NCBI GenBank assembly: GCA_046759145.1
Contig: JBHIBR010000035.1
Span: 1-10,368, forward strand
DNA from: JBHIBR01 sp046759145 [NCBI: Nitrospinota bacterium]
Lineage (GTDB): Bacteria; UBA8248
Length of the DNA stretch: 10,368 nucleotides
Direction of reading: 5' to 3'
Of the stretch, positions 678 through 10,334 are shown piece by piece. Below the pieces are notes generated by a model that did not search any database, had not been told where the DNA came from, and saw only the letters and a program-made list of their open reading frames with translations. Numbering within the stretch: the first letter of the stretch is position 1; every line of letters starts with the position of its first letter. The position numbers were made by a program, and so were the translations under genes.

Positions 678-1547
678 CTATCCTCGCCCTAGCCCGCGGC
701 CCAAAGCCCGGGCCCAGGCGGGCCCCAGGATGGCCCCGGCCACCCCGAGCGGCACCCCCGCCAGGACGTCCACCACGTAGTGGTAGCGCGTGTAGACGGT
801 GGAGAGGAGCAGGCCCGTCACCGCGGGGATGAGCCAAGGGAGCTCCCGCCGGTCCACTCTCGCCGCGAGCCCCACCACCGCCACCGCGATGGCCGCATGG
901 CCCGAAGGGAAGGCATCTCGCTTGATCCCCTCCAGGTAGGTGATCGTGGAGCGGATCCAGGGGGTGAGCCAACCCTCCAGCGGAAGGCTCTGGAAGGAGG
1001 TCAGGGTGTGGGAGGGTCCGATGGCGGGGACCAGGAAGTAGCCCGCGTAGGAGGCGAAGAAGACCAGCACCAGGCTGAAGGCCGCCTGGTCGAAGGCCGC
1101 CTGGTCACCCCGCCGCCAGAGGCGGATGGCGAGGAGGAGCGGCATCGGGTAGTAGGTCACATAAGCCAGGTGCATGAGGTCGGTCAGGAAGGGCGTGGTG
1201 AGCCGCTCCAGCCACACGGTGGGGTGGACCCCGAAAAGCCACAGGTCCGCCCGGATGAGGAGTGGGTCCAGGTCGCGGGGGTTCACGTGGGGGATGAGGG
1301 ACTTCAGGCTGTCGAACACCAGGAGGACGACGGGGACGGGGTAGAAGGCGTGAAAGAGGCGGAGGAGTCGGCCCCGGGGGTCCAGCGCGATGAGGGCGAC
1401 CAGGCCGGCCAGCAGCGCCGCGTACTCGAAGGGAAGCCACGGGGCCCCGGGCGGAGGGGGGAGGGCCAGGACCAGGAGCGCCAGGAGGAAGGCGCCGCAG
1501 AGCAGGTCGGCAGGTCGGATGCGGGCGAGCCAGGGGGGAGATGACAT
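678..1547 (-). CDS. PAP2_3 / inositol-phosphorylceramide-synthase-like membrane phosphotransferase
   Basis: This 289-residue integral membrane protein has about six hydrophobic segments (roughly residues 14-30, 41-55, 67-80, 126-143, 156-177 and 235-280). Catalytic motifs of the PAP2 superfamily are present: FPSGHA at 213-218 (His217) and YTRYHYVVD at 252-260 (His256, Asp260). GYFLVPAIGP at 169-178 is typical of the PAP2_3 branch, which contains fungal Aur1 and bacterial inositol-phosphorylceramide synthases. Family members move a phospho-head group onto ceramide or hydrolyse lipid phosphates at the membrane. Its place as last gene of a sphingolipid operon supports a head-group transferase, or a phosphatase acting on a sphingoid phosphate. 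The start is the ATG at 1547, 11 nt after the stop of the preceding gene. An upstream extension in the same frame would overlap that gene and encodes Arg/Pro-rich shadow sequence. No clear Shine-Dalgarno is seen, so translation may depend on the upstream gene. The donor head group is unknown. Confidence 0.85.
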   Translation of the reverse strand: MSSPPWLARIRPADLLCGAFLLALLVLALPPPPGAPWLPFEYAALLAGLVALIALDPRGRLLRLFHAFYPVPVVLLVFDSLKSLIPHVNPRDLDPLLIRADLWLFGVHPTVWLERLTTPFLTDLMHLAYVTYYPMPLLLAIRLWRRGDQAAFDQAAFSLVLVFFASYAGYFLVPAIGPSHTLTSFQSLPLEGWLTPWIRSTITYLEGIKRDAFPSGHAAIAVAVVGLAARVDRRELPWLIPAVTGLLLSTVYTRYHYVVDVLAGVPLGVAGAILGPAWARALGRGLGRG

Positions 1548-1558
1548 CGAGGGCCGCT

Positions 1559-2680
1559 TCAGCAGGCGCGCTCGTAGAGCCGGTGCCTTTTGACCAGGGC
1601 GCCGCCGAGGCCCTCGGCGACACGGATGACCTCGGCGTTGTCCTCCAGCATCCAGGAAGCCTCCGCCTGCCGGAAGCCCCGGGCGCGGGCTGCCCTCCAC
1701 AGCTCAAGCAGGAGGCGGACCTCCACGCCCCGTCGGCGCCAGGGCGCGACGACGCCCAGGGCCAAGAGCCGGAGGCCGTCCACGCGCCGCCGGTAGTAGA
1801 GGAATTTCAGGAGTCCAAGGGGGCCCATACGCCCGCCGAGCCTGGCCAACACCTGGTTGTAGTCCGGCAGCGCCAGGGCGAAGGCCACAGGTTCCCCCTC
1901 CGCCTCTGCGAACAAGGTGAGCTCCGGGTCGATGAGGGGCCTGAGCCGCCTGGCCATCCAGCGGATCTCCTCCTCGGTCATGGGGACGAAACCCCAGTTG
2001 GCCTCCCAGGCCCGGTTGTAGACCTTCCGGATCAGGGAGACCTCTCGGTCGAAACGCCCGAGCTCCACCGGGCGGATGGAGAGCGCCGGGTGCCGCTTGC
2101 TCAGGACCGCCTCCAGCCGGGCCAGGCGCGGGGGCGCCTCGGCAGACACGGGCGCCCGGAAGCTCAGGAGGTCCATCGCCTTGGCGAAACCCGCCCCCTC
2201 GAGCAGGGCGGGGTAGTAGGGGAGGGTGTAGGGCATCATGAAGGTGGGCGGCGAGTCGTGTCCCTCCACCAGGATCCCGCACTCCTCGTTCATCGACGGA
2301 TTCACGGGCCCCCGGATGCGCCCCATCCCGCGCGCCCGCAGCCACCGGGCGGCCCGGTCCAGGAGCCCGTTGGCCTCCCCTTGCCTGTTTGCGCATTCGA
2401 AGAAGCCGAAAAAGCCCGTCGCGTCCTGGTGGCGCTCCAGGTGGAGACGGTCGATGAAGGCCGCGATCCTCCCCACCGCCTCGCCCCGCCGGCGGGCGAG
2501 GAAAAGCGCCCGCTCCGCGTGGCGGAAGAAAGGGTTCTCGTCGGAGAGGACCCGGCGCACCTCCGCCCGCAGGGGGGGGATCCAATGGGGGTGCCCCCGG
2601 TAGAGCCGCTCGGGCAGGAGGGTGAACTCCCGGAGGTCCCGCCGGCTTGTGACCTCCTGGACGGCCGACTCACCGGTCAC
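1559..2680 (-). CDS. GNAT-fold N-acyltransferase, candidate bacterial ceramide synthase
   Basis: This 373-residue protein belongs to a large two-part GNAT-type family. N-terminal landmarks are LYRGHPHWIPPL (26-37), the near-invariant GPVNPSMNEECG (124-135) and MMPYTLPYYPALLEGAGF (148-165). The C-terminal GNAT core has an acyl-CoA/ACP pyrophosphate-loop-like PWRRRGVE (313-320) and LEDN (345-348) ahead of the last strand. The ceramide synthase identified in Caulobacter is also a GNAT-like protein unrelated to eukaryotic CerS. Position directly after the Spt-like gene makes N-acylation of the sphingoid base the best guess, but similar GNAT proteins exist outside sphingolipid loci. The start is inferred as GTG at 2680, which overlaps the Spt stop by 11 nt. 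The much longer open frame upstream lies wholly inside spt and translates to Ser/Arg/Pro-rich nonsense. There is no strong Shine-Dalgarno, which fits translational coupling. Family fold is fairly sure; the substrate is inference. Confidence 0.82.
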   Translation of the reverse strand: MTGESAVQEVTSRRDLREFTLLPERLYRGHPHWIPPLRAEVRRVLSDENPFFRHAERALFLARRRGEAVGRIAAFIDRLHLERHQDATGFFGFFECANRQGEANGLLDRAARWLRARGMGRIRGPVNPSMNEECGILVEGHDSPPTFMMPYTLPYYPALLEGAGFAKAMDLLSFRAPVSAEAPPRLARLEAVLSKRHPALSIRPVELGRFDREVSLIRKVYNRAWEANWGFVPMTEEEIRWMARRLRPLIDPELTLFAEAEGEPVAFALALPDYNQVLARLGGRMGPLGLLKFLYYRRRVDGLRLLALGVVAPWRRRGVEVRLLLELWRAARARGFRQAEASWMLEDNAEVIRVAEGLGGALVKRHRLYERAC

Positions 2681-3857
2681 GGCCCGGGTGCCAGTCGGAG
2701 AGGATCTCCTCGAAGGCCCCGAGGACGCAATCCAGCTGGGCCTCGGTGTGGGTGGACATGTAGCTCGTGCGCAACCGGACGGCTCCGGTCGGGGCCGCCG
2801 AGCCCAGGATGGCGTTGGCGAAGACCCCCTTGCGGTGCAGCATGCGCCAGAACTGGAGGACCTCGGCGTCACTATCGAAGATGACCGGGATGATGGGCGT
2901 CTCGCTCTTCCCCGTGTTGAGCCCCAGGCGGTCGAACCCCTCTTTCATCTTCCGGGTGTGCTCCCAGAGGCGGGCCCGCCGCTCCGGCTCCCGCTCGACG
3001 ATGTCCACGGCCGCCGATGCGGCCCCCACGCAGGCAGGCACGAGGCTCGCGGAGAAGATGAAAGGGCGGGCGTGGTGCCGGATGTAGTGGGCGACCGACT
3101 CCGAGGTGGCGATGAAGCCGCCGATGGCCGCCAGGCTCTTGGAGTAGGTCCCCATGATGATGTCCACCTCGGCCTCCAGGCCGAAGTGCTCGGCCGTCCC
3201 GCGGCCGCCGGCCCCCAGGACGCCGATGCCGTGGGCGTCGTCCACCATGAGGCGGGCTCCGTAGCGCTGGCACAGGCGCATGATGTTGGGCAGGTCCGTG
3301 ATGTCTCCCTCCATGGAGAAGACCCCGTCCACCACCACCAGCTTCCCCTGGGTCCCGCAGGTCCGGAGGGTCGACTCCAGGTGGTCCATGTCGTTGTGGC
3401 GGAAGCGCTTGACCTGGCCGTACGAGAGGCGGCAGCCGTCCACGATGGAGGCGTGGTCCATCTTGTCCACGATGACGGTGTCGCCCCGGCCCACCAGGGC
3501 GGAGATCGCCCCCAGGTTGGTCAGGAAGCCGGTGGGGAAGATGACGGCCGCCTCCTTGCGGAAGAAGGAGGCGAGCTTCCGCTCCAGTTCCTCGTGGATG
3601 GCCAGGGTTCCGTTAAGAGGGCGGGCGCCGGCGCAGCTGGTGCCGTACTTTTCCACGGCCGCCATCGCCGCCTCCTTGACCTGGGGATGGCTGGCGAGGC
3701 CCAGGTAGTTGTTGGAGCCGATCATGATCATCCGCCTGCCATCGACGATCACTTCCGGTTCCTGGGCCGAGGTGAGGACTCGGTAGTACGGGTAAAGGCC
3801 TGCCGCGATCAGGTCCCGCGCACTGGTGAACTCTTGGCACTTGGAGAAGAGGTCCAT
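2670..3857 (-). CDS. spt: Serine palmitoyltransferase-like PLP enzyme (alpha-oxoamine synthase family)
   Basis: This 395-residue fold-type I PLP enzyme belongs to the family of serine palmitoyltransferase, 8-amino-7-oxononanoate synthase (BioF), glycine C-acetyltransferase (Kbl) and 5-aminolevulinate synthase. Visible motifs are SNNYLGL (48-54), GTSCAGARPLNGT (72-84), DHASIVDG with the PLP-stacking His135, VDDAHGIG (205-212; Asp206 and His209), and TYSKSLAAIGG, in which Lys240 forms the internal aldimine. The tail region RLRTSYMSTHT (361-371) resembles the substrate-carboxylate-binding segment. Motifs alone do not separate SPT from BioF or Kbl, but neighbouring reductase, acyltransferase and PAP2 genes strongly favour SPT: serine + long-chain acyl donor -> 3-ketosphinganine, first step of sphingolipid synthesis, in the cytosol or at the inner membrane. 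ATG at 3857 is chosen because GAGGAG (3864-3869) lies 6 nt upstream; an in-frame ATG at 3884 falls inside the preceding gene. Length suits a soluble bacterial SPT of about 400 residues. Confidence 0.88.
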   Translation of the reverse strand: MDLFSKCQEFTSARDLIAAGLYPYYRVLTSAQEPEVIVDGRRMIMIGSNNYLGLASHPQVKEAAMAAVEKYGTSCAGARPLNGTLAIHEELERKLASFFRKEAAVIFPTGFLTNLGAISALVGRGDTVIVDKMDHASIVDGCRLSYGQVKRFRHNDMDHLESTLRTCGTQGKLVVVDGVFSMEGDITDLPNIMRLCQRYGARLMVDDAHGIGVLGAGGRGTAEHFGLEAEVDIIMGTYSKSLAAIGGFIATSESVAHYIRHHARPFIFSASLVPACVGAASAAVDIVEREPERRARLWEHTRKMKEGFDRLGLNTGKSETPIIPVIFDSDAEVLQFWRMLHRKGVFANAILGSAAPTGAVRLRTSYMSTHTEAQLDCVLGAFEEILSDWHPGRDR

Positions 3858-3863
3858 GGCTCT

Positions 3864-3869
3864 CTCCTC
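3864..3869 (-). promoter_or_regulatory. Shine-Dalgarno site of the spt-like gene
   Basis: On the minus strand the bases read GAGGAG, 6 nt before the ATG at 3857 and just after the TGA of the reductase gene (3875-3877). It is the clearest ribosome binding site inside the operon and fixes the start of the serine palmitoyltransferase-like protein. Confidence 0.7.
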
Positions 3870-3874
3870 GGAAC

Positions 3875-4858
3875 CTAGATCCATCCGTGCTGCCGGTACC
3901 ACCCCACTGTCTCTCGAAAGCCATCGGCGAGGGTCCGCGTGACGCGGAAGCCCAGCTCCCGGATGGCTTTGGAAACGTCGCACACCCAGTCTCGACAGAG
4001 TATCTCCTCGGCCTTCTGACGGCTCAGGTGGAAGGCGCGCCCTGTGAGTCGGCCGACTCCCTCGCTCAATGCCCCTGCCAGTCGGAGGAGGGGGGGAGGG
4101 ATGGGCACGGCCACACCCCCACCGAGAGCCGTCCGGGTGGCCTCCACGATGTCGGCCTCGGCATAGGGCGCGGGGTCGGCCACGTGGAAGACCTCCCCGC
4201 TCGCACCGGGGTGTTCGGCCATCAGGACGAGTGCGCGGGCCAGGTCCGCCGCGTAGATGAGGCTCAGGTGGCCGCCGCGCCGGAAGACCGGAATGACCCC
4301 TCGGGCGGCGCAGGCGAAGTAGAGTCGAGTGGCCCGGTCCCGGGGACCGTAGACGGTGGGGGGGCGGACGATAGCGGTGGGGAGCGCGTCGCTGGCGGCC
4401 AGGACGGCCGCCTCGGCCTCGGCCTTGGAGCGGCCGTAGGCGCTGACCGGGCGCAGGGGCTCCTCCTCCTTGAGCGGGTGGCCGTCCTGACTCGGCCCGA
4501 GGGCGGCCAGGCTCGAGACGTGGACAAACCGCCGGAGGCCGCTTCCCGCGCGCCGGGCCCCTCCCAGCATATTCACGGTCCCCCCCACGTTCACCCGGTG
4601 AAACTCCTCTGGTTCCCAGCCTCTGACCCTTCCGGCGAGGTGGATGATGACCTCCACCCCGGCCGCCGCCCTCTCGAGGCTCGCCGGGTCCAGGCAGTCG
4701 CCGTAGGCGGCTTCGACCGGCAGGCCGTCCAGCCAGGGGCTTCCCCCCCGAGGACGGAACAGGCAGCGGACGCGGTATCCACGGGCCAGAAACGCCTCCG
4801 CGACATGGCTCCCCACAAAGCCTGTTGCTCCTGTCACAAGGGCGGTGGGTGCGCCCAC
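3875..4858 (-). CDS. cerR: NAD(P)-dependent epimerase/dehydratase-type reductase, candidate CerR
   Basis: This 327-residue extended short-chain dehydrogenase starts with the Rossmann glycine motif TGATGFVGSH (9-18). It has the catalytic Ser115/Ser116 region (FVHVSSLAAL), the YxxxK pair Tyr141/Lys145 (SAYGRSK), and IVRPPTVYGPRD (163-174) typical of NAD-dependent epimerases and 3-beta-HSD-like reductases. Caulobacter CerR, which reduces the 3-keto group of the bacterial ceramide intermediate, is in this extended SDR class and neighbours spt. The immediate adjacency to an Spt-like gene here (17-nt gap) supports the same job. It is probably cytosolic, though the 3-beta-HSD-like C-terminal half may associate with membrane. 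The start is inferred as GTG at 4858 with a weak GGGGA about 8 nt upstream; it puts the glycine motif eight residues in, as usual. An in-frame TTG at 5023 would add 55 residues of Pro/Gly-rich sequence and is less likely. The reductase class is certain; the keto-ceramide substrate is inferred. Confidence 0.82.
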   Translation of the reverse strand: MGAPTALVTGATGFVGSHVAEAFLARGYRVRCLFRPRGGSPWLDGLPVEAAYGDCLDPASLERAAAGVEVIIHLAGRVRGWEPEEFHRVNVGGTVNMLGGARRAGSGLRRFVHVSSLAALGPSQDGHPLKEEEPLRPVSAYGRSKAEAEAAVLAASDALPTAIVRPPTVYGPRDRATRLYFACAARGVIPVFRRGGHLSLIYAADLARALVLMAEHPGASGEVFHVADPAPYAEADIVEATRTALGGGVAVPIPPPLLRLAGALSEGVGRLTGRAFHLSRQKAEEILCRDWVCDVSKAIRELGFRVTRTLADGFRETVGWYRQHGWI

Positions 4859-5022
4859 GAGGCTATCCCCATTCGGCTGGGGCGGGTTTCCCAACCTTGG
4901 CTCGGCTTCTGCGGGGATGGGGATCGAAGCTGGCGTCCACAGAAGTCCCCTCTCACCTCCGGGAGGTACCCCAAAGGCCGCCCCGCCGCTGCCTCCTTGG
5001 CACAAGGCCAATTTGCCCTGCA

Positions 5023-5050
5023 ATTTAACATCTGCCGCGTCCCATTGGAA
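5023..5050 (-). promoter_or_regulatory. Weak candidate promoter for the sphingolipid operon
   Basis: On the minus strand TTCCAA (5050-5045) and TTAAAT (5028-5023) are 16 nt apart, matching the sigma70 -35 and -10 consensus at 3 and 4 of 6 positions. It would give a leader of about 155 nt before the GTG at 4858. It sits in the most A+T-rich part of the leader. The match is weak and other sigma factors are possible. Confidence 0.2.
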
Positions 5051-5065
5051 CGCTTAGTTTCACGG

Positions 5066-5113
5066 AAAAAGGGCCGGGAGAGGCTGGGGGGGCTTTCTGC
5101 CCTCAGGCCGGCC
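5066..5113 (-). terminator. Terminator-like hairpin in the operon leader
   Basis: On the minus strand CCGGCC-type arms pair (5108-5113 with 5072-5077), enclosing an inner GGGC-AGAAA-GCCC hairpin (5102-5090). They are followed by a CTTTTTCC run (5071-5064). This has the shape of an intrinsic terminator pointing toward the reductase gene. If the real promoter lies upstream of it (5114-5206) it could be an attenuator; if the promoter is at 5023-5050 it would only block read-through from the insertion element. The long inner bulges make the fold uncertain. Confidence 0.3.
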
Positions 5114-5206
5114 GGTTTGCCCAGGCCATGAGATGCGGGCGCTCGCGGCGAATGCAATCGCCCCCGGAAGGGGAAGGAGAGTTCGGGACTCGGGCTAGCC
5201 GCCTTC

Positions 5207-5233
5207 TGAACAGGTCCAGATACATGTGAGACG
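5207..5233 (+). repeat. Left terminal inverted repeat of the IS481 element
   Basis: Twenty-seven bases starting TGAACAGGTCC and ending ACATGTGAGACG. The inner 12 bases are identical to the reverse complement of the right end, and 9 of the outer 15 also match, with a one-base gap. The exact outer boundary is inferred from where similarity stops. Confidence 0.8.
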
Positions 5234-5255
5234 CCCCCGGTAGGGGGGTAGAGTG

Positions 5256-5284
5256 CGAGGGGCCCAAGGAGAGGAGGCCCCTCG
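5256..5284 (+). promoter_or_regulatory. Hairpin enclosing the transposase ribosome binding site
   Basis: A perfect 9-bp stem, CGAGGGGCC (5256-5264) with GGCCCCTCG (5276-5284), directly abuts the ATG at 5285. The 11-nt loop plus the start of the 3' arm carry the purine-rich Shine-Dalgarno region AAGGAGAGGAGG (5266-5277). In RNA this would partly hide the initiation site. In other insertion sequences such structures lower transposase translation from impinging transcripts; the function here is inference. Confidence 0.65.
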
Positions 5285-6289
5285 ATGCGGGTGAGAGGAT
5301 GGGAGGGAGCCCTCCTGCGGGCAGGAGGGCTGGGGGTGGAGCTCTCCCCCCGGGCGAGAGAGCGGCTTCAGGCCTTGAGCCTGTGGAGGGAGACGGGGGA
5401 CGTGGGGTTGGTCTCGCGCACCTTCGGGCTGAGCCGGGCGACGCTCTATCGCTGGCGGGCGCGGTTTGAGCCGATGGACCTCAGCACGCTGGAAGAGCGC
5501 TCCCGGCGTCCCCGACGGGTGCGGAGGCCCCAGTGGAGCCCCGAGCTCGCGGAGGGGGTGTTGCGCCTTCGGCGGCAGTACCCCCGCTGGGGGAAGATGA
5601 AGCTGGCTGTGCTGCTGGAGCGCGAGGGGCTCGCCGCCTCGCCCTCCACGGTGGGCCGCATCCTGCGCTATCTCAAAGGCCGGGGGCGCCTCGGGGAGCC
5701 CAGGCTCCGTCGCGTGAGCGCCCAGAGGCGGCGCCCCCCGCGCCCCTACGCCACCCGCAAGCCCCGCGACTACCAGCCGGCCCGACCGGGCGACCTGGTC
5801 CAGGTGGACACCCTCGACCTCAGGCCCCTGCCAGGGGTCACCCTCAAGCAGTTCACCGCCCGCGATGTGGCCTCGCGCTGGGACGTGCTGGAGGCCTTCG
5901 GCCGGGCCTCGGCGCACTGCGCCCGCAAGTTCCTCGACACCCTCCAGGCCCGCGCCCCTTTCCCCATCCGGGCCATCCAGGTGGATGGAGGTGGGGAGTT
6001 CCGGGCCGAGTTCGAGGCCGAGTGCGCCCGCAAGGGGATCCGCCTCTTCGAGCTCCCGCCCCGCTCGCCCAAGCTCAACGGGGCCGTCGAGCGCGCCCAG
6101 CGGACCCACGCCGAGGAGTTCTACGAGGTCGAGGACCTCCCCTGGACCCTTCGCGAGCTCAACGCCCGGCTGCGCCAGTGGGAGCATACCTACAACCATC
6201 ACCGCCCCCACCAGGCCCTGGGCTACCTGACACCGGCCGAGGCCCTTGCTAAACTCCAAGCACAGGCCTCTCCGTCTCACATGTCATGA
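5285..6289 (+). CDS. IS481-family DDE transposase
   Basis: This 334-residue transposase appears intact. The N-terminal helix-turn-helix spans about residues 38-60 (GDVGLVSRTFGLSRATLYRW). A second helical DNA-binding region follows, with QYPRWGKMKLAVLL (98-111). The rve-type catalytic core has Asp175 (DLVQVDTLDL), Asp234 (IQVDGGGEF) and Glu269 (LNGAVERAQRTH), the full DDE triad. The tail YNHHRPHQALGYLTPAE (303-319) is characteristic of IS481/IS3-like integrases. It cuts and joins DNA at the element's ends. The ATG at 5285 is preceded by a purine-rich site held in a hairpin. A GTG at 5336 (residue 18, ahead of ELSPRARERL where homologues often begin) has an AGGAGG 7 nt upstream and is an alternative start. 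The stop codon lies inside the right inverted repeat. Composition resembles that of the surrounding genes, so there is no base-use sign of recent foreign origin. Confidence 0.93.
   Translation: MRVRGWEGALLRAGGLGVELSPRARERLQALSLWRETGDVGLVSRTFGLSRATLYRWRARFEPMDLSTLEERSRRPRRVRRPQWSPELAEGVLRLRRQYPRWGKMKLAVLLEREGLAASPSTVGRILRYLKGRGRLGEPRLRRVSAQRRRPPRPYATRKPRDYQPARPGDLVQVDTLDLRPLPGVTLKQFTARDVASRWDVLEAFGRASAHCARKFLDTLQARAPFPIRAIQVDGGGEFRAEFEAECARKGIRLFELPPRSPKLNGAVERAQRTHAEEFYEVEDLPWTLRELNARLRQWEHTYNHHRPHQALGYLTPAEALAKLQAQASPSHMS
5308..5331 (+). promoter_or_regulatory. Perfect hairpin within the 5' coding end of the transposase
   Basis: AGCCCTCCTGC (5308-5318) and GCAGGAGGGCT (5321-5331) are perfect reverse complements separated by two bases, so RNA would form at least a 10-bp stem with a tetraloop. 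Its 3' arm holds AGGAGG (5323-5328), the best-spaced Shine-Dalgarno for the alternative GTG start at 5336. There is no T-run, so it is not an intrinsic terminator. Confidence 0.6.
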
Positions 6290-6298
6290 ACCAGTACA
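6273..6298 (-). repeat. Right terminal inverted repeat of the IS481 element
   Basis: Read on the minus strand it begins TGTACTGGTTCA and ends ACATGTGAGACG, matching the left end. The last codons and the TGA stop (6287-6289) of the transposase are embedded in it. Confidence 0.8.
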
Positions 6299-6303
6299 GG
6301 GGC

Positions 6304-6332
6304 TTGACAAGGGCGGGGCGATCCCGTTCAAT
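6304..6332 (+). promoter_or_regulatory. Sigma70-type promoter of the cold-shock gene
   Basis: A perfect -35 hexamer TTGACA (6304-6309) and TTCAAT (6327-6332, 4 of 6 to TATAAT) are separated by exactly 17 nt. Transcription would start near 6339 and give a leader of about 70 nt before the TTG start at 6409. The -35 begins six bases after the right end of the insertion element, so the element stops just short of disrupting it but replaces everything further upstream. Confidence 0.65.
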
Positions 6333-6335
6333 GCC

Positions 6336-6359
6336 CCCGCCAGCACTGGCATTGGCGGG
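6336..6359 (+). promoter_or_regulatory. Hairpin in the cold-shock mRNA leader
   Basis: CCCGCCA (6336-6342) and TGGCGGG (6353-6359) form a 7-bp stem near the predicted 5' end of the transcript. A competing smaller hairpin uses the same left arm: GCCA (6339-6342) with TGGC (6347-6350). Structured leaders are common in cspA-type mRNAs, but any switch here is inference. Confidence 0.4.
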
Positions 6360-6393
6360 CCGGTGCGGAGGCCTCAGTTGGTGTGCAGTAGAG

Positions 6394-6399
6394 AGGAGG
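6394..6399 (+). promoter_or_regulatory. Shine-Dalgarno site of the cold-shock gene
   Basis: AGGAGG lies 9 nt before the TTG at 6409, and a second GAGAGGAG directly abuts the start. This supports initiation at the unusual TTG codon, which is where the conserved cold-shock N-terminus begins. Confidence 0.65.
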
Positions 6400-6408
6400 T
6401 GAGAGGAG

Positions 6409-6609
6409 TTGCCAGAAGGTGTCGTGAAGTGGTTCAACGATGCGAAAGGGTTCGGATTCATCGTGCAGGAAGCAGGTGAGGATGTCTTTGTGCATTTCTC
6501 TGCTATCCAGGGCGATGGGTTCAAGTCGCTGGACGAGGGTCAGCGGGTGCGCTTCGACATCGTCCGCGGACCCAAGGGCCTGCAAGCGGCAAACGTTGTG
6601 AAGATCTGA
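6409..6609 (+). CDS. CspA-family cold-shock protein
   Basis: This 66-residue single cold-shock domain has the nearly complete family pattern: [17 protein letters not shown] at the N-terminus, RNP1 KGFGFI (13-18), RNP2 VFVHFSAI (26-33), then [26 protein letters not shown]. These small OB-fold proteins bind single-stranded RNA and DNA in the cytoplasm and act as RNA chaperones, in cold shock or constitutively depending on the paralogue. The start is TTG, with a good Shine-Dalgarno 9 nt upstream. The gene is monocistronic, with its own strong promoter at 6304-6332 and a terminator at 6614-6665. It is unrelated in function to the flanking lipid genes, and its orientation is divergent from the sphingolipid operon and convergent with the squalene operon. 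Length and key aromatic residues (Trp8, Phe9, Phe15, Phe17, Phe27, His29, Phe30) are normal. Confidence 0.95.
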
Positions 6610-6682: not shown

Positions 6683-8014
6683 CTAGACCCCCTCTAGGAG
6701 AACCTTTGCGGCCCGGTGGCCGCTCCGGGCCGCACTCTCGAGGGTGGCGGGGAGCCGAGTGTCCGTCCAGTCGCCCGCGAGGAAAAGCCCTCGCAGCGGC
6801 GTGACCGGCCCCGGCCGGAAGCGCCCCTCCCCCACCGCGTTGCCCCAGGTAGCCTCCCGCTCACGGACCACGCAGGCCCCCTCCAGTGAGAACGGCACGG
6901 CGAGGCCGAGCGCCCGGGCCAGCTCTCTCCGTGCCTCTTCGGCCAGCTCCTCGTTGCCCCGGGCGAGGTGTCCCGCGGCCGTGCTGGCAAGGAGCGCCCA
7001 AGGGCCGCTCCCCCGCCCGCCCAACCTTCCCGCGTCGAAGAGCCAGTGGAACTGACCCCCCACGAGGGCGGTGAAGGGGGGTGCTTCCAGCCTCTCTTTC
7101 GGCCAGAGGTAGACGCTCACGATGGGAGAGGGGCTGAGGCGGGAGAGACCCGCAAAGAAGGGCTCCCCACCGCGGGCCCCTCCGGGAAGGAGAGAGAAGA
7201 GAGCAGGAGGGGGAAGGGCGGCAAGCGTCGCCCCCGCCTCCGCGCGGGAGCCATCCCCGAGGATGGCCCCCCGGACCTCCCCCCCCTCCAGCCAGAGCGT
7301 CCGGGCGGCCGCCCCTGTCCGTACCCTTCCCCCTCCCCCCCGCGACTCCACGAAACGCCGCGCCCGCTCGCCCAGCAGCTCTCCCAGGGGCGCCCGGGCG
7401 AAACCAAGCGCCGCCCCCCTTCCCCCTTCCCGAAACGCCTCCTGGAGCGTCCGGGCGAGGAGCTTCCCATCCGCCCGCTCGGGCGTCTCGTTCAAGACGG
7501 CCTGAACGAGGGGATCCCAAAACCACCGGCGGGGGCCTCCTCCCTGGCCAAGTCGCGCGAGCAGAGCCCCGGCGCTCTCCCCCTCGGGGAGGGCGGGATC
7601 CCTCAGCAGACGGCGAAGCCCGCGCACCAGCCGCCAACGGTCCACAAGAGAGGGCCCCGCCCAGCGCAGCACTCTCCAGGCGAGGTCCAGGGGATTGGCC
7701 GAAGGGCCGAACTCCAGCAGAGAGCTCCTCCCGCCCGCCTCCAGGAAGGGGACCCGCAAGGCGGGCTGGAACTCTACCTCCCCCTCCGCACCCACGCGGG
7801 AGAGGAAGCGGCGGAGCTCGCGGTAGCAGGCCATCAGGAGATGGGGGCCGTTGTCCACGGGCTCCCCCATCCCGCGATGGAAGAAGGAGCTCGCGCGGCC
7901 CCCCAACCGGGGCCTCTTCTCCACCACCGTGACGGGGACGCCCGCCTCGGCCAGAGCGGCCGCGGCGGAGAGGCCGGCTACCCCTCCGCCCAGGATGAGG
8001 ACGCTCTTCCTCAC
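6683..8014 (-). CDS. hpnE: Squalene-associated FAD-dependent desaturase HpnE
   Basis: This 443-residue flavoprotein opens with an FAD-binding Rossmann motif, SVLILGGGVAGLSAAAALAE (4-23), and the ribose-binding Glu32 in VVEKRPRLGGRA. It ends with the typical amine-oxidase/phytoene-desaturase C-terminal FAD motif, GLFLAGDWTDTRLPATLESA (409-428). NGPHLLMACYRELRRFL (55-71) is typical of HpnE. HpnE reduces hydroxysqualene to squalene, the last step of the three-enzyme bacterial route, at the inner membrane. Immediate linkage to HpnC/HpnD supports this assignment over carotenoid desaturase. The start is inferred as GTG at 8014, 11 nt after the preceding stop, because the nucleotide-binding strand begins there; a start further upstream would overlap the preceding gene and add 20 unrelated residues. 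The ribosome site is weak (a G-rich run), suggesting coupling to the upstream gene. Length is normal for the family. Confidence 0.9.
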   Translation of the reverse strand: MRKSVLILGGGVAGLSAAAALAEAGVPVTVVEKRPRLGGRASSFFHRGMGEPVDNGPHLLMACYRELRRFLSRVGAEGEVEFQPALRVPFLEAGGRSSLLEFGPSANPLDLAWRVLRWAGPSLVDRWRLVRGLRRLLRDPALPEGESAGALLARLGQGGGPRRWFWDPLVQAVLNETPERADGKLLARTLQEAFREGGRGAALGFARAPLGELLGERARRFVESRGGGGRVRTGAAARTLWLEGGEVRGAILGDGSRAEAGATLAALPPPALFSLLPGGARGGEPFFAGLSRLSPSPIVSVYLWPKERLEAPPFTALVGGQFHWLFDAGRLGGRGSGPWALLASTAAGHLARGNEELAEEARRELARALGLAVPFSLEGACVVREREATWGNAVGEGRFRPGPVTPLRGLFLAGDWTDTRLPATLESAARSGHRAAKVLLEGV

Positions 8015-8025
8015 GGGGGCCCCGG

Positions 8026-9870
8026 TCAGCGCCCCTCGGCGGCTTCGCCCCGGGCGAAGCGACAGCGCGCCCACGCACCCAGGGCGAGGGAGAGCTTCCG
8101 GAGGGGCGAGAGGGAGAGCCTCTTCTCACCGCAGCGGAAGCCCTCCCTCTCCATCCGGCGCAGCAGCTCGCGATAGATGGCGGCCATGACTTCCGCCGGG
8201 AAGAGGGCGCGCCGCGCTTCGGGGGGCAGAAGCTCCCGCGCCCTGTCGTAGAAGGAATGGGCGCGTGCGGCCTCGAAGGCCAGGAGCTCCCGGAGGGGGC
8301 CCCCCGGGAGGCTCACCCGGACCTCCTCTTCCTGAACACCGAACTGCTCCAGGTCCTCGAGGGGGAGGTAGAGGCGGCCCCGGAGGGCATCCGCCCGGAG
8401 GTCGCGCAGGATGTTGGTGAGCTGGAGGGCCACGCCCAGGTAGAGGGCGTAGCTCTTGGCCCGCGGAGTCGGGCAGCCGAAGACGTGCACGCAGATGAGG
8501 CCCACCGCGGAGCCCACCTGGTGGCAGTAGGTCTGCAGTTCCTCGAACGTGGGGAAGCGGCGGGCCTCCAGGTCGCTTGTGACGCCCTCGCAGAGATCGA
8601 GGAAGTAGCGGAGCGGGATGCTGAATGCCCCCGCCGCCCAGGCGAGTTCCCGGAGGACGGGGTCACGCTGCTCCACTTCCAGCAGGCTCTCGAGGGCGGC
8701 ACGCCAGCTCTCCAGCCGCCCCCGCCGCTCCTCCAGGGGGCCCGCCCCATCCGCCAGGTCATCCACCCGCCGACAGAAGGCGTAGACCGCGTAGAGCCCC
8801 CGCCGCTGCCGGGGGCGGAGGGCCGGAAAGGCGGCGAGGAAGTTGGACCCGCTGGCCCGGGTGAGGCGCCGGCAGAACTGGCGGGCCGAGTGGTGGGGGT
8901 CACGCAGGTCGGGATGCCGCGCGAGGCGCCCAGGCGGCAGCAACGCCGCACCCAGCATGCGCACTCGGTCCCAGCCCCTCAAGCGCGGCCGCCCGCGGAA
9001 CACCTCGTAGCCCGACCCCTCCACCCGGTCCAGAGCAGCCATCCCCCCGCGCCAGATGGCCCGCACTTCGCAGCCCAGGCGTCCCCGCAGCTTGGCCAGC
9101 AGGGGGAGTCCACGGGCGAAGAACGTCCGCGTGCGGGCCACTTCCCAGCACATGAGCGCGCGGAACTCCTCCGTCGCGCGCCCGGCTTGGAGCTGGGCCT
9201 CCTCCACGCCGAAGCGCTCCAGGTCTTCCTGGGGGAGGTAGATGCGCCCCCTTCGGAGGTCGGACGCCACGTCCTGCCAGAGGTTCGCCAGCTGGAGGGC
9301 GGTGCAGATGGCGTCCGAGGTGCGGTGGCACTCGGGGTCGCGCACCCCGTGCAGGAGGAGGACGAGACGCCCCACCGGGTTGGCCGAACGCCGGCAGTAG
9401 TCCAGGAGCTCCTCGAAGCTCGCATAGCGGCCCTTGGTCACGTCCTGGCGGAAGGCGGAGAGGAGGTCGCGGAAGAGTTCAGGGGGGAGGACAAAGCGGC
9501 GGATGGTGTCGCCCAGGGCGAGGAAAACAGGGTGGTCCGCCTCCCCCATCAGGCACCGCTCCAGGCGGGCGCCCCACTGCGCAAGGCGTTCGAGACGCGC
9601 GCGCTCGGGCGAGGTCGGGCCTGCCGAGGGGGGGCCGAGCTCGTCCCCCGCCAGTGCGGAGAGCCCCTCGTCCGCGAAATCGTCCGCCGCGCGAGCGAAG
9701 GCGTAGATAGCCCACATGTGGGGGCGGAGTTTGCGGGGCAGCAACCAGGAGCCTACGGGGAAGTTCTCGTAGTGGCGGGAGGCCACCCGGCGACAGCGCT
9801 CGTAGGCGGCGGCCAGGCTCTCCCCTGCGGCCCGGTTTTGCACGATGGAGACAGGTCCCCCCGGGATCAC
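8026..9870 (-). CDS. hpnCD: HpnC-HpnD fusion: bifunctional squalene-pathway prenyl synthase
   Basis: One uninterrupted 614-residue frame holds two complete trans-isoprenyl-diphosphate head-to-head synthase domains. Residues about 18-300 are HpnC-like: RHYENFPVGSWLLPRKLRPHM (32-52), Asp-rich ADDFADE (62-68) and NLWQDVASDLRRGRIYLP (196-213; Asp200, Asp204). Residues about 328-605 are HpnD-like: SNFLAAF (342-348), Asp-rich VDDLAD (369-374) and NILRDLRADALRGRLYLP (486-503; Asp490, Asp494). HpnD condenses two farnesyl diphosphates to presqualene diphosphate; HpnC converts it to hydroxysqualene. These are normally two separate adjacent genes of about 280-300 residues. Both domains keep all Mg/diphosphate-binding aspartates, so both should be active. 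A linker of about 25 residues (300-327) joins them. The GTG start at 9870 overlaps the upstream stop as GTGA and has GGAGGAG 5 nt upstream. A GTG at 9843 is an alternative. The product probably associates with the inner membrane. Confidence 0.92.
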   Translation of the reverse strand: MIPGGPVSIVQNRAAGESLAAAYERCRRVASRHYENFPVGSWLLPRKLRPHMWAIYAFARAADDFADEGLSALAGDELGPPSAGPTSPERARLERLAQWGARLERCLMGEADHPVFLALGDTIRRFVLPPELFRDLLSAFRQDVTKGRYASFEELLDYCRRSANPVGRLVLLLHGVRDPECHRTSDAICTALQLANLWQDVASDLRRGRIYLPQEDLERFGVEEAQLQAGRATEEFRALMCWEVARTRTFFARGLPLLAKLRGRLGCEVRAIWRGGMAALDRVEGSGYEVFRGRPRLRGWDRVRMLGAALLPPGRLARHPDLRDPHHSARQFCRRLTRASGSNFLAAFPALRPRQRRGLYAVYAFCRRVDDLADGAGPLEERRGRLESWRAALESLLEVEQRDPVLRELAWAAGAFSIPLRYFLDLCEGVTSDLEARRFPTFEELQTYCHQVGSAVGLICVHVFGCPTPRAKSYALYLGVALQLTNILRDLRADALRGRLYLPLEDLEQFGVQEEEVRVSLPGGPLRELLAFEAARAHSFYDRARELLPPEARRALFPAEVMAAIYRELLRRMEREGFRCGEKRLSLSPLRKLSLALGAWARCRFARGEAAEGR

Positions 9871-10334
9871 GCCCGCTCCTCCGCCGCCAGGGCGCGCACC
9901 AGGGGGGCGTCCGCAGGGAGGAAGGAAAACCCCAACAGCTCCCCCGGCCGCGCCCAGCGGTGGGCTGCAACTCCAAGGTCGCGGGCCTGACCCCGGCGGA
10001 GAGCGCATTCATAGAAGGAGAGCTGGACACTCAGGTGGAGATAGGCGTGCTCGGTCTGCCAGAGGAGGGGCCCCACCTCCACCTCAAGGCCGAGCTCCTC
10101 GCGGACCTCTCGCCGCAGGCAGCGCTCGGGCTCCTCCCCGGGCTCCACCTTGCCGCCCGGGAATTCCCACAGGCCCCCGAAGGGGCCTCCGGGCGGCCGC
10201 TGGCAGATGAGGATCCGACCCCCTCGGCGGACGATGGCTGCCACCACGTGGACCCTCTCTTCCGCCCCCGAGGTGTGCTTCCGGGCGCGCATACGGCACC
10301 CTCTTCTCCCGGGCCTCGTTCCGGGCGGCGGCAT
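9867..10334 (-). CDS. mutT: MutT-like NUDIX hydrolase
   Basis: This 155-residue protein has an intact NUDIX box, Gx5Ex7REUxEExGU: Gly61, Glu67, Arg75-Glu76, Glu79-Glu80, Gly82, in the context LWEFPGGKVEPGEEPE. The N-terminal VHVVAAIVRRGGRILICQRP and C-terminal FLPADAPLVRAL match small MutT/8-oxo-dGTP or CTP pyrophosphohydrolase enzymes, which cleave damaged or excess nucleoside triphosphates to monophosphates. Position 142 carries Asp where E. coli MutT has the base-recognising Asn in its PANEP motif, so specificity may differ. The ATG at 10334 has GGGGAG 5 nt upstream. The ATG at 10292 (141 residues, with AGAGGG upstream) is equally plausible and removes a Pro/Arg-rich leader. The stop overlaps the hpnCD start by 4 nt, so the two are translationally coupled. 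Whether this is housekeeping or acts on an isoprenoid diphosphate cannot be told from sequence. Confidence 0.88.
   Translation of the reverse strand: MPPPGTRPGRRGCRMRARKHTSGAEERVHVVAAIVRRGGRILICQRPPGGPFGGLWEFPGGKVEPGEEPERCLRREVREELGLEVEVGPLLWQTEHAYLHLSVQLSFYECALRRGQARDLGVAAHRWARPGELLGFSFLPADAPLVRALAAEERA
9876..9882 (-). promoter_or_regulatory. Shine-Dalgarno site of the hpnCD fusion gene
   Basis: The minus strand reads GGAGGAG, 5 nt before the GTG at 9870 and inside the last codons of the NUDIX gene. It supports the GTGA overlap as the true start and reinitiation or coupled translation from the upstream gene. Confidence 0.7.

Follow-up and report, generated by a model that had tools for sequence, protein, structure and literature searches.

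A fused HpnC-HpnD gene overlapping a NUDIX gene, and a NUDIX-HpnC-HpnD frame in a sister candidate phylum

The window, by which we mean the whole 10,368-nucleotide stretch of DNA analysed here, contains one open frame in which the two squalene-pathway synthases HpnC and HpnD are joined, and it raises the question of whether this is a functional two-domain enzyme and, if so, how such a protein came to be assembled. Since HpnC-HpnD fusions are already known, the fusion to which a preliminary description had drawn attention is on its own a modest finding. That description did not include the overlapping NUDIX gene directly upstream, the relatives of which were found fused in frame to HpnC-HpnD in a sister candidate phylum.

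The fused frame and its neighbours

The HpnC-HpnD gene runs on the minus strand from a predicted GTG start at 9870, which lies 7 bases after a Shine-Dalgarno-like GGAGG (9878..9882, minus), to a stop ending at 8026, and encodes 614 residues with no internal stops. The span 8026..9870 and the length given in the preliminary description were retained and the strand was corrected to minus (9870 to 8026), the plus-strand reading of 8026-9870 being a mechanical open frame only, the reverse of the real gene. Within the protein, the HpnC domain occupies residues 30-310 (8941..9783, minus) and the HpnD domain residues 337-601 (8068..8862, minus), separated by an interdomain linker at residues 311-336 (8863..8940, minus). 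As whole-fusion scores sum over both halves, the halves were scored apart with NCBIfam models. Residues 1-320 alone scored 339.5 bits against the HpnC model (TIGR03464, cut-off 250.45) and 183.6 bits against the HpnD model, below its cut-off of 278.6, and residues 321-614 alone scored 282.1 bits against the HpnD model (TIGR03465), a narrow pass with a margin of 3.5 bits over the same 278.6, and 155.7 bits against the HpnC model, below 250.45. Each half passing its own cut-off and missing that of the other bears out the earlier description of two complete domains, as does the state of the Asp-rich motifs it had reported to be intact: D63xxxD67 and D200xxxD204 in the HpnC half, and D370xxxD374 and D490xxxD494 in the HpnD half, were all invariant when aligned with 14 fused relatives, comprising one Omnitrophota fusion and 13 of the 16 triple fusions considered below. 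Third-position GC peaked in a single unchanged frame from 9494 to 8774, including the interval 8900-8970 where a frameshift had been feared, which gives no hint of a shift of frame from one domain to the other; the join itself is common to 16 other genomes.

The AlphaFold2 prediction for the window protein was a confident two-domain model (mean pLDDT 87.6, pTM 0.85) in which the linker is partly helical, with block pLDDT of 83-90. By structure comparison with VIA-align, the N half matched the solved HpnC structure PDB 4hd1 (Z 31.3, 44% identity) and also CrtM-like enzymes, in a match list of which nearly all rows fell inside residues 8-410, such that the HpnD fold was scarcely covered. The C half matches CrtM-like enzymes by sequence.

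The gene order in the window is NUDIX - hpnC-hpnD - hpnE, all on the minus strand. The upstream gene (9867..10334, minus) encodes a MutT-like NUDIX protein of 155 aa, identified by NCBIfam, Pfam and tree placement, with the NUDIX box GKVEPGEEPERCLRREVREEL. Its stop and the start of the fusion form a GTGA overlap (9867..9870, minus), TGA and GTG being read in different frames, and near this junction the third-position GC signal passes from the frame of NUDIX to that of HpnC. Translation of the fusion is probably coupled to that of the NUDIX gene through the overlap. Downstream, the hydroxysqualene dehydroxylase HpnE (6683..8014, minus) scored 354.8 bits against NCBIfam TIGR03467 over the stretch 6683-8020 (cut-off 283.05). 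For hpnE we propose a GTG start at 8014, 11 bases beyond the stop of the fusion, within an open frame that is itself longer.

Further along, the window carries minus-strand genes at 678-5023 for a PAP2 protein, a GNAT acyltransferase, a serine-palmitoyltransferase-like enzyme (495.5 bits, below the cut-off of 640) and an NAD epimerase, which resemble a bacterial ceramide (sphingolipid) cluster. At E 1e-10, none of the 18 sister-phylum genomes gave a match to the PAP2 protein. An IS481 family transposase (5285-6289, plus; 227.3 bits, cut-off 224) lies between hpnE and these sphingolipid-like genes, and no inverted repeats flanking it were found within 5024-6600.

A three-domain frame in a sister candidate phylum

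The best locus in a scan of genome contigs, labelled Candidatus Tectomicrobia bacterium (L004), has an open frame that starts with NUDIX and continues into HpnC-HpnD. Among 146 relatives of the L004 genome, 50 gave matches, and NUDIX-HpnC-HpnD was present in one stop-free frame of 719-809 residues in 16 of the 18 genomes searched from the candidate phylum, L004's own included; in the remaining two, the copy is cut by a contig end (G009) or there was no match (G010). Outside the candidate phylum, the same search gave no row with both halves in one uninterrupted frame, and two long frames that had seemed to contain part of both halves (G134 and G051) encode HpnD alone (L105, L107). HpnE follows next after the triple fusion at all 16 loci, in one case cut by a contig end (L090). 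For one such protein (L089), AlphaFold2 gave a mean pLDDT of 87.3 and a pTM of 0.76, with stretches under pLDDT 50 at residues 1-5, 134-147 (between NUDIX and HpnC) and 167-172. No description of a NUDIX-HpnC-HpnD fusion was found in the open-licence literature, where it seems to be undescribed; subscription papers and database annotation may differ. Of 17 genomes searched from the phylum (G001, G006-G009, G011-G022), which may be incomplete, just three showed a squalene-hopene cyclase domain, although 16 keep hpnC-hpnD-hpnE; two of the three cyclase matches were frames of more than 1,100 residues with modest scores.

The triple-fusion proteins of this phylum are the closest relatives of the window protein, which is 47-52% identical to them over HpnC-HpnD (13 of the 16 compared). 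The window NUDIX is 51-62% identical to all 16 fused NUDIX domains and is a probable orthologue of them. The principal difference is that NUDIX is fused in frame in the sister phylum, whereas the window has no triple fusion: its NUDIX is a separate gene ending at the TGA that overlaps the HpnC-HpnD start. In a tree of joined HpnC and HpnD (41 rows, of which the window's and those of three triple fusions were flagged for unusual letter make-up), the triple fusions formed one clade (100/100) with the window as its sister (100/99), and a 100-row quick tree agreed (window sister 99, triple-fusion clade 100). In a tree of the NUDIX domain, which is short, the 16 fused domains formed one group (90/89) with the window beside it, and the window, the 16 and two stand-alone rows fell within a supported group (95/84). 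Together with the adjoining NUDIX gene, these trees fit a common ancestor with a NUDIX gene beside an hpnC-hpnD fusion, NUDIX having been fused later. The most likely history, and the simplest, is that HpnC and HpnD were joined first, which would have required the loss of an intervening stop in the common ancestor, and that NUDIX would have joined them later in the sister clade.

A possible but less probable alternative is that the window lineage was once triple-fused and that a change of frame in the linker, either a sequencing error or a recent split, freed NUDIX, in which case the window would be no intermediate. In its favour, every one of the 16 uncut copies from the sister phylum has NUDIX fused, the linker varies both in length and in sequence, and one frame step parts the two genes; moreover, the window is one sequence, in which a one-base error in this variable linker could have split a real triple fusion. 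Against this, stop and start meet in a clean GTGA overlap, with GGAGG placed before the GTG as in ordinary coupled genes, and the window branches outside the 16, so that an unfused ancestor requires no extra event. We therefore favour the stepwise history over a split.

Fused and separate pairs elsewhere

The scan of genome contigs was made with a three-row alignment and the best 80 loci were picked by match score. Both domains were present in 77 of these loci, with three (L073, L076, L081) showing one domain only. The two domains were separate genes in 74 of the 77 and fused in three (L004, L007, L058), in line with the earlier statement that HpnC and HpnD are usually separate, and not to be read as an unbiased rate because the loci were chosen by match score. 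The observation that 59 of the 74 unfused pairs lie in the same frame was likewise set aside as biased, since ranking by match score favours one-frame pairs. Whether fused or not, hpnC preceded hpnD on one strand in all 77 two-domain loci. The order HpnC then HpnD, which had been put forward as favouring channelling, is therefore the ordinary operon order and no evidence for channelling, which is a guess. When the window protein was the sole query, the genome contigs gave zero matches, as did a scan of viral sequences.

Other fusions do exist, as had been anticipated. According to PMC5462960 (2017), HpnC-HpnD fusions occur in subdivision 2 Acidobacteria, some Actinobacteria and Rhodospirillum centenum; the HpnCD proteins it describes (subdivision 2 Acidobacteria, Actinopolyspora, Blastococcus saxobsidens, Rhodospirillum centenum) have HpnC then HpnD, as in the window, and are about twice the size of each, and the word Nudix is absent from the main text of that paper. 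A fusion on a Microvirga ossetica plasmid (WP_162299269.1, L003), annotated merely as a squalene/phytoene synthase family protein, similarly has HpnC-HpnD in one open frame with a FAD-dependent oxidoreductase gene next, but differs in its distant long branch in the tree and in having no such NUDIX in the 6.3 kb of sequence covered. Among 145 Omnitrophota genomes drawn evenly, 19 matched and only one (G002) had both halves in one frame. An Omnitrophota MAG carries an HpnC-HpnD fusion without NUDIX, followed by HpnE (L007, 5977-7704); some 4 kb further along the contig lies a match to squalene-hopene cyclase (G002:C22:33155-34012). The third fused locus among the best 80 that were surveyed (L058, 5938-7593) is on a contig labelled Cytophagales and was placed among Burkholderiales in the 100-row quick tree; the label or binning of this MAG may be wrong.

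Several candidates proved to be unfused. Those in Azospirillum (a single tblastn piece) and Cupriavidus are two separate genes each. An even sample of 247 Acidobacteriota genomes yielded 90 with a match at E 1e-40; the published subdivision 2 fusions were not found in this sample, which may include few subdivision 2 members, and at a limit that could miss divergent halves. Three Acidobacteriota rows spanning both halves (L157-L159) each contained an internal stop and are separate genes, as are five further loci (L160-L164); none of ten more stretches with long frames was fused, the remaining matching genomes being judged by match rows alone.

The fused proteins did not group together. A single clade of all fused rows (the window, the 16, L007 and L058) was rejected in the 41-row tree with a p-AU of 4e-10, a value that is flattering because the group was named after the first tree had been seen. 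As the fused proteins are not one clade, repeated origins of the HpnC-HpnD fusion, in operon order, are probable on these trees, in which the fused rows are the window, the 16, L007, L058 and, in the 100-row tree, the Microvirga fusion. What the test rejects is a single clade; one fusion origin with several later splits is a less likely history that it does not address formally.

Proposed roles of the synthase halves and of NUDIX

The roles of HpnD, HpnC and HpnE were assigned by Pan et al. 2015, as told in PMC5462960. Applied to the window, the C-terminal HpnD half would condense two farnesyl diphosphates (FPP) to presqualene diphosphate, the N-terminal HpnC half would convert presqualene diphosphate to hydroxysqualene, and HpnE, from the next gene, would reduce hydroxysqualene to squalene. 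The three activities expected and the gene order are those of separate hpnC, hpnD, hpnE operons, from which the window differs in having HpnC and HpnD fused instead of as separate polypeptides. We consider it likely, from sequence, that the product of the window gene is bifunctional and would catalyse the first two steps on the way from FPP to squalene, with the NUDIX fusion of the sister clade coming later.

It is improbable that either half has degenerated to the role of a scaffold or dimer partner only: nothing speaks for this directly beyond the HpnD half scoring near its cut-off, and all four Asp motifs are intact and invariant. In addition, both synthase domains showed a median dN/dS of 0.11-0.39 in the triple-fusion relatives (the window itself not being part of this comparison), calculated over three groups of close relatives with 21, 3 and 3-6 pairs, in the last of which dS is nearly saturated. 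Still less probable is another C30 or C40 product, as from a dehydrosqualene or phytoene synthase pair, because although the C half also bears a resemblance to models of phytoene synthase and to CrtM structures, no phytoene synthase model comes near its cut-off (best 158.4 against 550), the HpnC and HpnD models pass, and the next gene is HpnE. An error of assembly or sequencing that joined two neighbouring genes is hardly credible as the source of the fusion, even if hpnC and hpnD usually adjoin in the same order, because 16 other genomes have the same HpnC-HpnD join in one stop-free frame and third-position GC gives no frame change across it. A bifunctional HpnC-HpnD enzyme thus continues to be the preferred reading.

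The part that NUDIX plays beside these synthases is less evident. The window NUDIX scored 87.9 bits against PF14815 and 73 bits against PF00293, placing it within the NUDIX superfamily, and 79.2 bits against the MutT model TIGR00586, below the cut-off of 97.9, as did three fused relatives (85.7, 89.1 and 88.2 bits). The NUDIX box with its catalytic Glu is intact in the window and in all 16 fused relatives, which also all keep an FLPAD stretch that we take to lie at the base-recognising site of MutT-type enzymes. Median dN/dS for NUDIX in the triple-fusion relatives was 0.10-0.19, over the same groups, and therefore indicates purifying selection. No second NUDIX relative was found in 17 genomes of the phylum at E 1e-15, the next best NUDIX reaching 53.8 bits (E 3e-14) where the fused domain scores 136-169 bits; outside the phylum, 14 of 22 genomes have a relative at E 1e-15 or better and 8 lack one. 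Among loci L001-L083, within reach of the flanks, such a NUDIX was near hpnC only in L004, and L042 has a more distant one (97 bits) near hpnC on the opposite strand.

Chrysanthemyl diphosphate and presqualene diphosphate have a common cyclopropylcarbinyl skeleton. A plant NUDIX, TcNudix1, hydrolyses chrysanthemyl diphosphate with high specificity according to PMC7194074, and is similarly tied to an irregular prenyl diphosphate formed by condensing two allylic diphosphates. By analogy, the candidate phylum might make squalene with a three-domain enzyme in which NUDIX hydrolyses FPP or presqualene diphosphate as a valve for excess or leaked intermediate, with the window representing the stage of the two-synthase fusion. 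This is a speculative proposal that we regard as rather unlikely, as the window NUDIX is in sequence nearer BdRppH, CTP pyrophosphohydrolase and MutT than plant NUDX1, and is by that measure nearest to nucleotide-type (MutT/NudG/RppH-like) hydrolases. With BdRppH, MutT2 and CTP pyrophosphohydrolases as the nearest structures, FLPAD kept and no second relative in the 17 phylum genomes, a housekeeping nucleotide role appears at least as likely as a prenyl role.

What these results add to the known HpnC-HpnD fusions is that the fused proteins are not one clade, making repeated fusion in operon order probable, that a NUDIX-HpnC-HpnD frame is present in 16 of 18 genomes of one candidate phylum, and that the window lineage has the two-domain state with NUDIX separate but overlapping. 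They raise the question of whether this NUDIX has prenyl diphosphates as its substrates or is simply a passenger with nucleotide hydrolase activity, and, taken together, the window and its sister clade make a stepwise history of gene fusion readable.
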